Below, piece by piece: positions 19,495 to 31,647 of a stretch of DNA of 64,000 bases. Each line of letters starts with the position of its first letter. Position 1 is the first letter of the stretch. This DNA comes from Solimonas aquatica (GTDB taxonomy: Bacteria; Pseudomonadota; Gammaproteobacteria; Nevskiales; Nevskiaceae), in NCBI RefSeq assembly GCF_900111015.1, contig NZ_FOFS01000014.1:1-64000 (forward strand). Reading direction: 5' to 3'. The translations under genes were made by a program, and so were the position numbers. Under the pieces are notes generated by a model. That model was not told where the DNA came from. It worked only from the letters and a program-made list of their open reading frames with translations, and did not search any database.

Positions 19495-20317
19495 GCCCTG
19501 TCTCCCTGTGCATCGGCCGCGTGTCTTGGGCGGATGCGGTGTTGAATGAAGGCGGCAAGCTTGGGGCTTGCGTCTTAAACGCTGCTTAAGTGCGAAGCAC
19601 GGCAGGCAGGGTGATCATCAACACGCTGCTGGCGTTGCCAGCGTCCGCGACCTTCCAGAACGAAGACAAATCGTAAGGCGGCTTAGGCGCGTGAGCGCCG
19701 TAAGCCGCCGTTGTGGGGTTGCTGTTGTTGCTTCGTTTTGTTCCTGATCTATTGGCTTCTTCCACCGCCCTTCGGCGGCGGAGTCCGCGAAGCCTCCCCC
19801 GTAGGTCGCTTCGCTCTTTGCTTGTGCAAAGAAAAGGAACCAAAAGAAAGCACACCCCGGCTCCGGCGCCAGAGACGGGGACCCCAAAGTCAAAAGCAAC
19901 AGCGCAGCGACGCTCCGCGCGCGAAGCCGCTGTTGCTGTGGCTTTGCTTTTAAACCCCCTTTGCCTCGCACCGAGCAGCGCAGCGAGCGCAGTGGAAGAA
20001 TCGAACAGGAAGTTCGATTCAGTTGCAGCCGCGCCAGGGATGGCGCGTCTGCAACGGCCCCGAGCACGCGAGCAGCGCTTACCTGCCGGCGCCGCGACAG
20101 CGGCGACGGATGCGAGGCGTAGGGCGTGTTTTCTCTTGGGTACTTCTCTTTGCACGAGCAAAGAGAGCAGAAGCGACCTACGGGGGAGCTTCTGCCTCGG
20201 GCGCCGGAGGCGCACGAAACCAAGGCGCAATCGAGCGATCAGCCAAGAGACGAGAGTGGCGGCTTGCGGCGCTCACGCGCCCAAGCCAGCCTACATGTCC
20301 TTGGCTGACTTCCGAAC
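19495..20317. other. 823-bp gene-free interval dominated by repeats
   Basis: This interval contains the inverted-repeat element described at 19671-20295 plus about 175 bp upstream of the exported-protein gene. Overlapping open frames exist on both strands because the repeat is GC-rich and palindromic; none has a domain, a ribosome site or unique coding character. Confidence 0.6.
19671..20295. repeat. Inverted-repeat-bounded repeat element, copy B (about 0.62 kb)
   Basis: The ends are imperfect inverted copies of a palindrome-containing sequence: left GTAAGGCGGCTTAGGCGCGTGA (from 19673) and right, in reverse, GTAGGCTGGCTTGGGCGCGTGA. Farther in, the two halves again match in inverse: CTCCCCCGTAGGTCGCTTC followed by TTTGC(T)TGTGCAAAGA and a purine-rich AAGAAA tract (19793-19850 versus about 20118-20192 reversed). 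The centre holds two strong hairpins: GAATCGAAC/GTTCGATTC and GTTGCAG...GCGCC/GGCGC...CTGCAAC (about 20002-20054). No transposase is encoded. Confidence 0.7.
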
Positions 20318-27479: not shown

Positions 27480-29189
27480 TTAGAACTGCGTGCCGGCGAG
27501 CATCGCGAAGTGCTCGGCCAGCGGTCCCAGCACCAGGGAGGGCAGGAAGGTGAGGCCGCCGAACACCAGCACCACCGCCACCAGCAGGGCCACGAACAGG
27601 CCACCGTCGGTGGGCAGGGTGCCGGCCGAAACCGGGATCTGTTTCTTCGCCGCCAGACTGCCGGCGATGGCAAGCATGGGCACGATGATCGCGAAGCGCC
27701 CGATCAGCATCGCGATGCCCAGCGTGCTGTTGTAGAACACCGAGTTGGCGGACAGGCCTGCGAAGGCGCTGCCGTTGTTGCCGGCGGCCGAGGCATAGGC
27801 GTAGAGAATTTCCGTGAAGCCATGGGGGCCGGCGTTGTTGAGACCGGTGAGACCCGCCGGCAGCACGCAGGCGATGGCCGTGAACAGCAGGATCGCCAGC
27901 GGCGCGGCCAGCACCGCGAGCGTGGCCAGCTTCACCTCGCGCACCTCGATCTTCTTGCCGATGTACTCCGGCGTGCGGCCCACCATCAGCCCGGCCATGA
28001 AGATCGCAATCAGTGCGTAGAGCATCATGCCGTAGAAGCCGGCACCGACACCGCCGATGATCACCTCGCCGAGCTGGATGTTGAACAAGGGGATGGCACC
28101 GCCCAGCGCGGTGAAGCTGTCATGCATGGCATTGACCGCGCCGCAGGAGGCGGCGGTGGTGATCACCGCAAACAGCGCGGAAGCGGCGATGCCGAAGCGC
28201 GTCTCCTTGCCTTCCAGATTGCCCGGGCCCTGCACGCCATCGAAGCCGCTCAAGGCATTGGGCGCGGCGCTCTCCGCCCAGTAGGTGATCGCCACACCGG
28301 CAATGAACAGGACCAGCATCGCGCCGAGAATGGCGTGGCCCTGCCAGCGATTGTTCACGGCGCGGCCGAAGACATCGGTGAGTGCGGCGCCGATCACGAA
28401 GATCGACAGCATCTGCAGCAGATTGGACAGCGGCGTGGGGTTTTCAAACGGATGCGCGGAATTGGCATTGAGAAAGCCGCCGCCATTGGTGCCCAGCATC
28501 TTGATCGCTTCCTGCGAGGCGATGGGGCCTTGCGCGATCAGCTGCTGCGCAGCTTCCAGCGTGCTGGCCTGCGTGTAAGCCGAAAAGTTCTGCGGCACGC
28601 CCTGCCAGATCAGCAGGCACGCGAACAGCAGACACGCCGGCAGTAGCAGATATAGCGTGAGGCGCGTCACATCCACCCAGGCATTGCCGAGTTGCTGCGT
28701 GCTCTTGCGGGCGAAGCCCCGGATCAGCGCGAAGGCCAGCGCAATACCGGTCGCGGCGGAGAGGAAGTTCTGCACCGTCAGGCCCGCCATCTGCGAGAGA
28801 TAGCTCAGCGCCTGCTCGCCGCTATAGGACTGCCAGTTGGTATTGGTGGTGAAGCTCATCGCGGTGTTGAAAGCCAGGTCCGCGCTCAGGTTCGGCAGCT
28901 GCTGCGGATTGAGCGGCAGCCAGGCCTGCGTGCGCAGCAGCAGATACAGCAGCGCAAAGCCCAGCAGATTGAACAGCAGCATGGCCAGCGCGTACTGCTG
29001 CCAGGTCTGCTCGCTGCGCGCATCGACGCCGGACAGGCGGTAGAAAACGCGTTCCAGGCCGCCGAGTGCCGGCATCAGCATCACGCGTTCGCCCGTGAAG
29101 AGTCGATGCAGATAGGCGCCCAGGGGACGCACGCTGAGCAGCAGCAACAGGCAGTAGAAGAGTATTTGCAGCCAGCCATTGGCGGTCAT
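27480..29189 (-). CDS. kdpA: KdpA potassium-binding channel subunit
   Basis: The 569-aa polytopic subunit selects and conducts K+. It has the KdpA markers [15 protein letters not shown] (first filter region), [22 protein letters not shown] (second), and the later loop [17 protein letters not shown], each contributing Gly-rich filter loops, with ten or so membrane helices. It is located 21 bp downstream of kdpF. Confidence 0.97.
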
Positions 29190-29390: not shown

Positions 29391-29550
29391 GAGGTGGTCT
29401 TCAGGCAGTGACGCTGCTTTGCTGCAGCCCGCGCATTACGCCCCGGCCAGGCATAGGAATTCGAGATGGACGCACCGGGCGCCGGCATATAAGGGACATA
29501 TAGATCCGCGCATCGCAGCCATCACTTGCTTTGTCCAAGCGTTTGTGATT

Positions 29551-29576
29551 GCGGCACTGATCCAGATCAATGCCGC
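29551..29576 (+). promoter_or_regulatory. FNR/ANR-type operator
   Basis: CTGATCCAGATCAA at 29557-29570 differs from the TTGAT-N4-ATCAA consensus at one base and sits in a longer 26-bp near-palindrome (GCGGCA/TGCCGC outer arms). The following TGCC also fits Anr promoters. The hexamer GATGAT (29593-29598) lies where a -10 box would be if the site is centred at -41.5, predicting a start near 29605 on the plus strand. On the minus strand the equivalent -10 position (ACAAAG) is poor. Confidence 0.6.
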
Positions 29577-29604
29577 ACTAGCTGTATCGCACGATGATGA
29601 CCTC

Positions 29605-29700
29605 GGTCTGGCAACAGGCCCCCGAAAGTGCCCGTACCACTCTCCTCCGGTGCGGGACAATACCCGCGACGTCCCCCCCGGATGGCGCGGGTCTTTTTTT
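29605..29700 (+). ncRNA. candidate oxygen-regulated small RNA or attenuator leader
   Basis: About 96 nt between the predicted start and an intrinsic terminator. It contains an 8-bp stem (CCCGTACC 29631-29638 with GGTGCGGG 29649-29656, one G-U pair) exposing ACTCTCCTCC, which is complementary to Shine-Dalgarno sequences, and a terminator hairpin at 29662-29692 whose loop is C-rich. GCGGG (29652-29656) can also pair with CCCGC (29663-29667), giving a competing antiterminator. This fits either a C-rich-loop regulatory RNA or a transcription attenuator for the small exported protein downstream. No protein frame is supported inside. Confidence 0.45.
29662..29700 (+). terminator. intrinsic terminator
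   Basis: Arms ACCCGCG (29662-29668) and CGCGGGT (29686-29692) are followed by C and seven T residues (29694-29700). It faces the plus strand and ends no annotated gene, which is the first clue that a short RNA is made here. Confidence 0.7.
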
Positions 29701-29845: not shown

Positions 29846-30211
29846 ATGAAAGCCAAGTCTGTTCTCGCCATTGCCGGTCTGTCGCTGGTCTCGCTGGTGC
29901 CGGTGAGCGCGTTCGCCCACGCCGATGTTTCGGTCAGCCTCGGTTTCGGCGGCTACGCGCCGGGCTACGCGACCGTCTACAGTCAGCCGGCTTACGTGGA
30001 ACCCGCCCCGATCTATTACCCGGCGCCGCGTCCGGTGTACTACGGTGTGCGCGGCTATGCGGCGGCGCCGGCCTATGTGGGCTATCGCGGCTACTACCGT
30101 GACGAGGACCGTCACTGCCGCGACCGCGAGCGTCATGATCGCCGCTGGCGCGGTGACCGCGACGACTGGCGTGATTCGCAGTATCGCGGTGGCTACTGGA
30201 ACGGCTACTAA
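29846..30211 (+). CDS. small exported Tyr/Arg-rich protein, 121 aa
   Basis: A signal peptide (KSVLAIAGLSLVSLVPVSAFA, cut after AFA) precedes a mature domain in two parts: a Tyr/Pro/Ala-rich stretch (YVEPAPIYYPAPRPVYYGV) and a charged Arg/Asp-rich tail with RDEDRHCRDRERHDRRWRGD. Such low-complexity periplasmic proteins are widespread but of unknown function. The ATG at 29846 follows AAAGGAAAG; the frame stays open upstream to 29594, but that part crosses a terminator. Confidence 0.75.
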   Translation: MKAKSVLAIAGLSLVSLVPVSAFAHADVSVSLGFGGYAPGYATVYSQPAYVEPAPIYYPAPRPVYYGVRGYAAAPAYVGYRGYYRDEDRHCRDRERHDRRWRGDRDDWRDSQYRGGYWNGY

Positions 30212-30238: not shown

Positions 30239-30265
30239 GGCCCGCGAGTGATCGCGGGCCTTTTT
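30239..30265 (+). terminator. intrinsic terminator after the small exported protein
   Basis: Nine-bp arms GGCCCGCGA (30239-30247) and TCGCGGGCC (30252-30260) with a GTGA loop are followed by five T residues. It ends the plus-strand gene just before the convergent mnmE stop at 30264. Confidence 0.9.
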
Positions 30266-31616
30266 ATTTGCCGATGCAGAAGCTGGCGAAGATGCGCCCC
30301 AGCAGATCCTCGCTGCCGAAGCGGCCGGTGATTTCCCCCAGGGCTTCGAGTGCCAGACGCAGTTCTTCGGCGGCGAGTTCCGGCAGCTGACGGTCCTGCA
30401 GGCGCGCGGCGGCCTGATCGAGATGGTGCTGGCAGCGCGCGAGGGCCTCCAGGTGACGGCTGCGTGCGGAGAACGCGCTTTCCGCGCCGTCCTGCAGGCC
30501 GGCGAAACGGTGCAGCGCCTCGATCAGCAGGTCCAGACCCTGACCGCTGACGGCGCTGATGAACAGCTCGACACCGGCCTGTCGCTCGCATCGCTGCGGC
30601 GGCAGGCCGGCGAGATCGATCTTGTTGTGCACGATCAGCCGCGGCAGCTGCGCTGGCAGCGTGGCCATCAGCTGCTGGTCTTCATCGCTGAACGTTTCGC
30701 GGGCATCGCGGATGAACAGCGCCAGCTCGGCCTGCTCCAGGGCCAGACGTGCACGACGGATGCCTTCGCGTTCCACCGGGTCTTCGCTGTCGCGCAGACC
30801 GGCGGTGTCGATCAGGGTGATGGGCAGACCGCGCAGATTCAGATGCTCACGCAGCACATCGCGCGTGGTGCCGGCGATCTCGGTGACGATGGCCACGTCC
30901 GCGCCGGCGAGGCGGTTGAGCAGCGTGGACTTGCCGACATTGGGGCGGCCGGTGAGCGCGATGTTCAGACCTTCGCGCAGGCGTCGGCCTTGTGCGGCCT
31001 CGCGCTGCAGCTGCGCAAGCTGTGCTTGCGCAGCGCCGAGTTGCGCGCTCAAGTGCTGATCGCCGAGCCAGTCCACATCTTCGTCGGAGAAATCCAGCGC
31101 GCCTTCCACGTACATGCGCAGCTGAATCAGGCTTTCGGCCAGCTGCTGCACGCGGCGTGAGAGTTCACCGTCCAGCGAGCGCTGCGCGGCGCGTGCGGCC
31201 TGGGCGCTGGCGGCGTCGATCAGGTCGGCAATGGCCTCGGCCTGCGCCAGGTCGATGCGATTGTTGAGAAAGGCGCGTTCGGAGAATTCACCGGGCCGCG
31301 CCGCACGCGCGCCGATGGCGCAACAGGCTTGCTGCAGCAGCTGTAGCGCCATCGGGCTGCCATGGCCTTGCAACTCCACCACGTCTTCACCGGTGAAGGA
31401 ATGCGGCGCCGGGAAATACAGCAACAGGCCCTGATCGATGACCTCGCCGCGCACATCGCGAAAGTGGCGCAGCGTCGCCTGCCGGGGCGGTGGCAGGGTG
31501 CCCGCTATCCGTGCGGCGATGGCGCCGGCCTGCGGCCCGGAGAGACGCAGCACACCGATACCACCGCGTCCGGGCGCGGTGGCGACGGCGACGATGGTAT
31601 CGGTGTGGGCGGACAT
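30264..31616 (-). CDS. mnmE: tRNA modification GTPase MnmE
   Basis: With MnmG it installs the cmnm5 group on U34 of several tRNAs. The 450-aa protein has the N-terminal formyl-THF-binding domain (DTIVAVATAPGRGGIGVLRLSG), a helical domain, the inserted G domain with GRPNVGKST (G1), the G3 motif DTAGL and NKID (G4), and the C-terminal CIGK with the catalytic Cys. The ATG at 31616 is chosen; the earlier in-frame start overlaps the yidC gene end. It is last in the rpmH-rnpA-yidD-yidC-mnmE gene string. Confidence 0.96.
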   Translation of the reverse strand: MSAHTDTIVAVATAPGRGGIGVLRLSGPQAGAIAARIAGTLPPPRQATLRHFRDVRGEVIDQGLLLYFPAPHSFTGEDVVELQGHGSPMALQLLQQACCAIGARAARPGEFSERAFLNNRIDLAQAEAIADLIDAASAQAARAAQRSLDGELSRRVQQLAESLIQLRMYVEGALDFSDEDVDWLGDQHLSAQLGAAQAQLAQLQREAAQGRRLREGLNIALTGRPNVGKSTLLNRLAGADVAIVTEIAGTTRDVLREHLNLRGLPITLIDTAGLRDSEDPVEREGIRRARLALEQAELALFIRDARETFSDEDQQLMATLPAQLPRLIVHNKIDLAGLPPQRCERQAGVELFISAVSGQGLDLLIEALHRFAGLQDGAESAFSARSRHLEALARCQHHLDQAAARLQDRQLPELAAEELRLALEALGEITGRFGSEDLLGRIFASFCIGK

Positions 31617-31647
31617 GTTCCGCAGAGTAGCGGCCGCCAGCAGCGCT

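Follow-up and report, generated by a model that had tools for sequence, protein, structure and literature searches.

Introduction

Small RNAs (sRNAs) activated by FNR are an established kind, and FnrS of Escherichia, PhrS of Pseudomonas and AniS/FnrS of Neisseria are all made under oxygen limitation or under FNR/Anr control. For the Neisseria AniS/FnrS, oxygen limitation or FNR control is described alongside the siblings NmsRA and NmsRB, which the same source presents as having three stem-loops and UC-rich anti-Shine-Dalgarno stretches that repress mRNAs (PMC5362039, in part). The C-rich loops of sX13 are described as repressing mRNAs with G-rich motifs at their ribosome-binding sites, independently of Hfq (PMC3771888, in part). 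ErsA is placed between polA and engB within a sigma-22 circuit; it acts on the anr mRNA, and Anr links it to anaerobic control (PMC8575079, in part).

Here we describe a candidate sRNA from a 4.43-Mb draft genome (G000) of what we infer to be a Solimonas-type bacterium. The stretch analysed, hereafter the window, comprises 64,000 nucleotides (G000:C15:1-64000). We consider it rather likely that positions 29605-29700 encode a free-standing, trans-acting sRNA that is activated at low oxygen and covers Shine-Dalgarno sequences with its C-rich loops; its transcription, oxygen control, trans action and targets are predictions. The parts of the candidate are all of known kinds. Two covariance models were used for comparison, R1 being built from the candidate alone (one sequence) and R3 from polA-adjacent sRNAs (alignment A2). 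Searches within G000 for boxes, R1, R3 and terminator loops covered 1.26 Mb, or 29% of the draft, and gene names in the low-oxygen and matched stretches are mostly our reading of the translations by eye.

Genomic context and putative promoter

The element is placed between the leftward kdp genes and the rightward gene of a 121-aa protein, followed on the opposite strand by mnmE, with which that gene is convergent (Table 1). A reading made from the sequence only had located the RNA upstream of kdp, with no gene between operator and terminator. The kdp genes do adjoin it, but they are transcribed leftwards, so that the predicted RNA is divergent from them. The stretch is also not free of open frames, several of which, distributed over both strands, share sequence with the RNA; the five that were scanned gave no Pfam match. 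Pfam and NCBIfam searches with the 121-aa protein returned no match either.

Table 1. Coordinates of the features discussed, in the window unless another locus is named
Feature	Position	Strand	Basis
kdpA of the divergent kdp genes	27480..29189	-	open reading frames, profile search
FNR/Anr-type operator, 28-bp near-palindrome TGCGGCA...TGCCGCA	29550..29577	.	sequence, box scans
Putative -10 hexamer GATGAT, 4/6, class II spacing	29593..29598	+	read from sequence; inference
Predicted sRNA, 96 nt, three hairpins	29605..29700	+	fold and shuffles; model R3 match
5' hairpin GGUCUG-GCAA-CAGGCC	29605..29620	+	fold
Hairpin 2, 8-bp stem, loop ACUCUCCUCC (29639-29648), complementary to GGAGG Shine-Dalgarno cores	29631..29656	+	fold
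Possible competing (antiterminator-like) hairpin GCGGG-ACAATA-CCCGC, not favoured	29652..29667	+	fold
Intrinsic terminator, apical CCCCC loop (29675-29679), T7	29662..29700	+	sequence, fold
Small protein, 121 aa, signal-peptide-like start (by eye)	29846..30211	+	frames, profile search
mnmE (from the start used in searches)	30264..31637	-	frames, profile search
Analogue in family-mate G043: perfect FNR box, CUCCUCCUC loop hairpin, terminator	L144:1501-1632, G043:C101:10541-10672		
polA-adjacent RNA of G000, GAACTT...TCTAA promoter, C-rich loops	L218:3916-4032, G000:C8 near 70.4 kb	-	

The proposed FNR/Anr box with one mismatch is borne out, CTGATCCAGATCAA at 29557-29570 differing once from TTGATNNNNATCAA. 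The near-palindrome surrounding it is likewise real but extends over 28 bp rather than the 26 bp first read, with 11 of 12 arm positions pairing. A ggca flank is likewise seen at the two boxes linked to ccoN in family members. The window has two sites at which a box departs from the consensus by no more than one mismatch (shuffle mean 0.39; two or more sites in 6 of 100 shuffles), and 33 such boxes were counted in the 1.26 Mb of G000 (13 in 464 kb and 20 in 800 kb). At about one per 38 kb such boxes are common enough to lend some credit to the idea that a near-consensus box and a pair of GC-rich hairpins have met here by chance and without meaning. Nevertheless, we hold this to be unlikely, as extreme box symmetry, a box-to-start distance that puts the start where a hairpin begins, a terminator and rare C-rich loops all coincide; the 29557 box is the most symmetric of the 33, the arms of the runner-up pairing at 8 of 12 positions.

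With the box centre at -41.5, a class II start would fall on 29605, which is the foot of the 5' hairpin. This 6-bp hairpin, capped by a GCAA loop and absent from the sequence-only reading, begins exactly at that position, and a hairpin on the predicted first base favours the start, if as a post hoc point. The -10 hexamer itself is weak. Since a palindromic box is directionless, the box could also be real but used otherwise, for example in a divergent kdp promoter, with the hairpins forming a stray terminator rather than a functional sRNA, and that no homologue was accepted in congeners would agree with this. We regard such a role as improbable. The hexamer at leftward class II spacing, ACAAAG, agrees at two of six positions, against four of six for the rightward GATGAT (both by eye), and no box with at most one mismatch lies in the 11 kdpA-upstream regions that were read from the 21 other KdpA-bearing genomes. 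Five two-mismatch boxes occur in four of these regions, positioned elsewhere. The missing Pfam matches among the RNA-overlapping frames and the rarity of so stable a fold among shuffled sequences (below) also argue against it.

Fold of the predicted RNA

The 96-nt RNA folds at -44.9 kcal/mol, compared to a mean of -32.9 for shuffled sequences (z -3.36), and 1 of 200 shuffles was as good. Hairpin 2 (CCCGUACC-ACUCUCCUCC-GGUGCGGG) presents its anti-Shine-Dalgarno loop much as had been proposed, on an 8-bp stem and with each of the ten loop bases unpaired at a probability of at least 0.99. The terminator also holds up, as a hairpin at 29662-29692 followed by T7 at 29694-29700, for which a simple scan gives an offset register only. 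Its loop is indeed C-rich, but only five of seven C residues are unpaired. By our own criteria, C-rich loops are found in 5 of the 279 terminator-like hairpins in 1.26 Mb of G000, and two of these five belong to the candidate and to the polA-adjacent RNA of the same genome.

The sequence-only reading had further offered a competing hairpin and, as an option, an attenuator for the gene at 29846. On that view the RNA would be an FNR-controlled leader and attenuator, transcription starting at 29605 and mostly stopping at 29700 unless the competing hairpin forms. RNA and gene lie on the same strand, 145 bp separate the terminator from the start codon, and the GCGGG/CCCGC pairing can be drawn. This pairing is however absent from all eight folded prefixes, and a fold made to include it is less stable by 4.3 kcal/mol (-40.6 compared to -44.9). 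Moreover, the downstream gene has a Shine-Dalgarno-like AGGAAAG of its own, Rfam gives no gathering-level match here, and although 6 of 40 other genomes encode a relative of the protein, none of these loci is near an R1 match or a box-to-T-run match, as judged from the match positions rather than base by base. An attenuator is thus unlikely in our estimation. The oxygen-responsive sRNA is the better of the two options on account of an FNR-type regulator, a box before a ccoN-like gene, the compact three-hairpin unit ending in a terminator, and the presence of C-rich-loop sRNAs in the same genome and order.

An FNR-type regulator and low-oxygen genes

Contig G000:C28 encodes an FNR-type protein of 253 aa. 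In an alignment with an FNR-type regulator of solved structure, its four cysteines (three in C-x2-C-x5-C, the fourth in VCRVP) and its ETVSR helix find their counterparts; the best match among solved chains is 9qlt_A (E 3.5e-30). In FNR, cysteines of this kind hold the oxygen-labile cluster. Against NF008365 the protein scores 123.5 bits, below the curated cut-off of 228, and as none of 61 genomes, G000 included, has a protein over that cut-off, we call it FNR-type rather than a proven Fnr equivalog. At G000:C28:111297, a box precedes a ccoN-like gene, with fixL-like and fixJ-like frames and the FNR-type gene within 5 kb. The box-preceded ccoN-like gene and the fixL-like, fixJ-like and FNR-type genes make up a low-oxygen cluster at G000:C28:110217-116000 (L254, L215).

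Comparison with known sRNAs

At the gathering level, Rfam gives no match at the place of the candidate. The sole above-threshold Rfam match in the window is a TwoAYGGAY RNA at 19994-20061 (51 bits). Below threshold the candidate has 13 matches (E up to 10), varied and often to C-rich families, so base composition may drive the likeness. The highest score is to ErsA (Pseudomon-1, RF01719) at 22.6 bits (E 0.013), under the cut-off of 50, and the two RNAs are alike in having a C-rich hairpin followed by a terminator. They differ in the direction of control, as ErsA is described as acting on the anr mRNA (PMC8575079, in part), whereas an FNR-type regulator is the proposed activator of the candidate.

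Like sX13 of Xanthomonas (RF02232), the candidate consists of compact C-rich-loop hairpins with a terminator of their own, C-rich apical loops being present in two of its three hairpins. It nonetheless scores 18.0 bits with the sX13 model, against a gathering cut-off of 50, and was not listed when that model was run on G000. While sX13 adjoins polA, the candidate lies between kdp and mnmE, and the FNR-type box is another feature by which it differs. Its loop differs as well, being CUCUCCUCC where the published account of sX13 has CCCC (4C) motifs (PMC3771888, in part). The likeness to NmsRA and NmsRB is one of description only, and these are paired siblings, whereas the candidate is single in 1.26 Mb. 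Rfam includes an FnrS model; the names FnrS, PhrS and AniS are absent among the candidate's 13 matches, which were compared by family name only.

A family of polA-adjacent C-rich RNAs

The Rfam sX13 model has sub-threshold matches in 34 of 61 genomes and in 3 of 14 control genomes, and the ErsA model in 8 of the 61; with neither model does any of the 61 exceed the cut-off. Of 16 such matches that were read, 13 look like one family, located beside polA and characterised by a sigma-E-type promoter and four hairpins with C-rich loops. A polA C-terminal motif was present at 18 of 21 loci, and Pfam confirms polA in G000, on contig G000:C8. The sigma-E-type promoter, GAACTT-N15-18-TCTRA, was found at 10 of 15 loci, a raw count without a control set.

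Among 11 aligned members, 13 of 29 pairs change on both sides, which none of 500 shuffles reach, and sliding the pair partners lowers this number to 2-5 pairs. One of the five covariation measures, that of further pair types, was not above shuffles (24 against 24.8), and RNAalifold alone finds only 16 pairs. As the structure was drawn by hand on the same alignment, the percentage of paired positions leans to it. Taken with these points, covariation supports the predicted family fold in the 11 aligned members.

Clustered copies, three to six within about 3 kb, were observed in ten loci of two genera, namely L103, L105-L109, L111 and L112 (genus g17, family f6) and L117 and L119 (genus g5, of the window's family). 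By motif, nine of the ten lie beside polA, L111 being the locus where the motif was not seen, and a sigma-E-type promoter is present in some. Two copies each were counted in S. flava and G001, compared to a single copy in the 1.26 Mb of G000. We found no description of clustered polA-adjacent C-rich sRNAs in the literature searched. The multi-copy family represents a clear and testable set of RNAs with covariation support.

Relation of the candidate to the polA-adjacent RNA

The polA-adjacent RNA of G000 shares with the candidate its C-rich loops, a C loop in the terminator and the genome itself; it differs in having four hairpins, a GAACTT...TCTAA promoter and polA as neighbour. No sigma-E-type GAACTT...TCTRA promoter was seen by eye in 29500-29610. 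In the window, the candidate is the only match of R3 (E up to 10), at 19.0 bits and E 0.012. In 1.26 Mb of G000, R3 finds its own member at 106.5 bits, then the candidate at 19.0 (E 0.23), the next site scoring 11.8 bits. Conversely, R1 finds, after itself, the polA RNA at 24.0 bits (E 0.0014), followed by its own antisense at 20.5 and a 15.9-bit site, and no second copy of the candidate. The two RNAs are thus mutual best model matches within 1.26 Mb, with modest scores.

How much this means depends on the background, which in 265 kb from other genomes reached 14.4 bits for R3, and 20.6 and then 12.4 bits for R1. In other genomes, R1 reaches as much as 37.5 bits at sites that lack a box and resemble plain terminators, and a whole-genome run of R1 with stricter filters listed, in G000, the candidate itself only and not the polA RNA. 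We therefore consider the model likeness soft, with R3 as the better witness, and at 19.0 bits against the 29.7-106.5 bits of the 38 counted R3 family members, it falls short of family membership.

One origin that would be compatible with the sRNA reading is that the candidate is a diverged paralogue of the polA-adjacent sigma-E-type sRNA, which moved and gained an FNR promoter, so that two stresses elicit the same anti-Shine-Dalgarno activity. The mutual best matches and the multiple copies of the polA RNA in relatives make this conceivable, but we find it doubtful. The R3 score is below those of the counted members, the R3 alignment breaks several pairs of the candidate's helices 1 and 3, the 24 bits of R1 are little above its 20.6-bit background, and convergence on C-rich loops plus a terminator would look identical. 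Judging from the models, either paralogy or convergence on C-rich loops could account for the likeness. Most likely, the candidate would work like sX13, ErsA and the polA RNAs without being filed with them, as it scores below the counted members of the polA family and below the sX13 and ErsA cut-offs.

Conservation and look-alikes in other genomes

Conservation in close relatives, proposed beforehand as a test of the RNA, did not emerge, since no homologue was accepted in any of the ten congeners examined. These are not close, MnmE being at most 72% and KdpA up to 85% identical. Nor did the corresponding mnmE or kdp place yield an accepted homologue in the loci read. The look-alikes that were read and rejected as homologues comprise a lone box in G004, R1 matches in G006, G007 and G008, and box-to-T-run matches in G001 and G008. 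Around mnmE, a box within 1.5 kb was present only in G000 and its order-mate G062 (20 of 21 loci parsed, L091 being left out).

In a DNA search of 100 genomes, nine matched, self included, and the nine non-self matches span 22-60 bp. A box is present at the match in six of these nine loci (none in L003, L004 and L008), and of the six boxes, two precede ccoN-like genes while a third is flanked by an fnr-like and a fixJ-like frame. The 18 matches of R1 in 14 other family genomes were rejected, as they have no box with up to two mismatches in the 150 bases upstream and appear by eye to be terminators or coding sequence. C-rich loops are seen in three of them (L073, L074 and L078), and L073 adjoins polA and has a sigma-E-type promoter. 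At L074:1501-1596 (minus strand, G028) and L139:1501-1582 (plus strand, G007), a C-rich-loop hairpin and terminator are located just past stop codons, and the preceding genes end alike (AKYAF and AKYMF). These hairpins are possible 3'UTR-derived C-rich RNAs.

Searching the order for a box followed by a T-run gave 14 matches with 13 boxes in 12 of 85 genomes, and none in the reversed control. Judged by eye at 12 of the 14 loci, a hairpin RNA with a real terminator is present only in G000 and in its family-mate G043. The G043 analogue has CAGAAT at the place of the -10 and a hairpin that shows UAUCUCCUCCUC; it lies between a glycerol-3-phosphate-dehydrogenase-like (glpD-like) gene and a ydcF-like frame. 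Both RNAs have TCTCCTCC in common, their neighbours differ, and R1 does not match L144 at E up to 5. From sequence, it would seem that such a layout either arose on two occasions or belongs to an RNA that evolves fast.

A box combined with CTCCTCC gave 18 matches in 13 of 58 family genomes, as string matches only, with none in the reversed control. In the class, the same pair occurs 42 times, in 41 of 369 genomes, compared to four genomes in the reversed control, so that the motif pair alone is weak evidence. Thirty such loci were screened, the candidate's own among them; no T-run of five lies within 170 nt in 27, and in one (L225) the opposite strand has an overlapping open frame. The leader of an rplM-like gene (L220, G392) contains TTGATAGGGATCAA, CTCCTCC and a strong terminator; it may be analogous to the candidate, a leader attenuator or a coincidence.

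Proposed mechanism and targets

So how would such an RNA act? When oxygen falls, the FNR-type regulator, carrying an iron-sulphur cluster, would bind the 29550-29577 palindrome and activate the class II promoter, from which transcription would begin at 29605 and stop at the RNA's own terminator. The rigid hairpins would then present ACUCUCCUCC and the C5 loop, and by pairing with GGAGG-type ribosome-binding sites both loops could repress translation of a set of mRNAs at low oxygen, much as sX13 acts on G-rich motifs. Given that FNR-activated sRNAs exist, and that sX13 represses through C-rich loops and the NmsRs through UC-rich anti-Shine-Dalgarno stretches, the most likely effect of the RNA would be reduced translation, under oxygen shortage, of mRNAs whose GGAGG(A) sites are strong.

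If real, the candidate would be an sRNA under FNR control whose loops are dedicated to anti-Shine-Dalgarno pairing, from an order without a described sRNA in the literature searched, and would show how one simple kind of loop chemistry can be coupled by bacteria to promoters for different stresses. Literature on Solimonas, Nevskiales and Salinisphaera contained no such sRNA by title, subscription journals being mostly outside the scope of this search, and titles and abstract openings of literature joining FNR, C-rich and anti-Shine-Dalgarno contained no such RNA either.

In a target scan of 10% of the genome, complementarity to the loop extended over 7 nt or more at 21 starts. In the 400 kb used for discovery, a box lies within 250 bp upstream of 3 of these 21 starts, compared to 9 of 364 GGAG starts. 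In 800 kb of held-out sequence, the numbers were 1 of 16 and 5 of 588, and with one start in 16 the idea of a feed-forward arrangement, which arose post hoc, stays a lead that we do not claim. Within the window, complements of the loop are not enriched: 16.7 were expected, and the six that occur include the antisense of the RNA itself. At its most extended, the idea would be a two-input anti-Shine-Dalgarno system, in which the polA-linked family answers envelope stress and the relocated, promoter-swapped candidate answers low oxygen, while some targets are themselves activated by FNR, so that their translation would be delayed or capped by incoherent feed-forward control; we deem this speculative and not likely.

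The possible gene starts that have both a box within 250 bp upstream and at least 7 nt of loop complement are located at G000:C28:163540, 142986 and 125696, and at G000:C14:4152. By eye, the product at G000:C28:125696 resembles a sigma-32-type factor.
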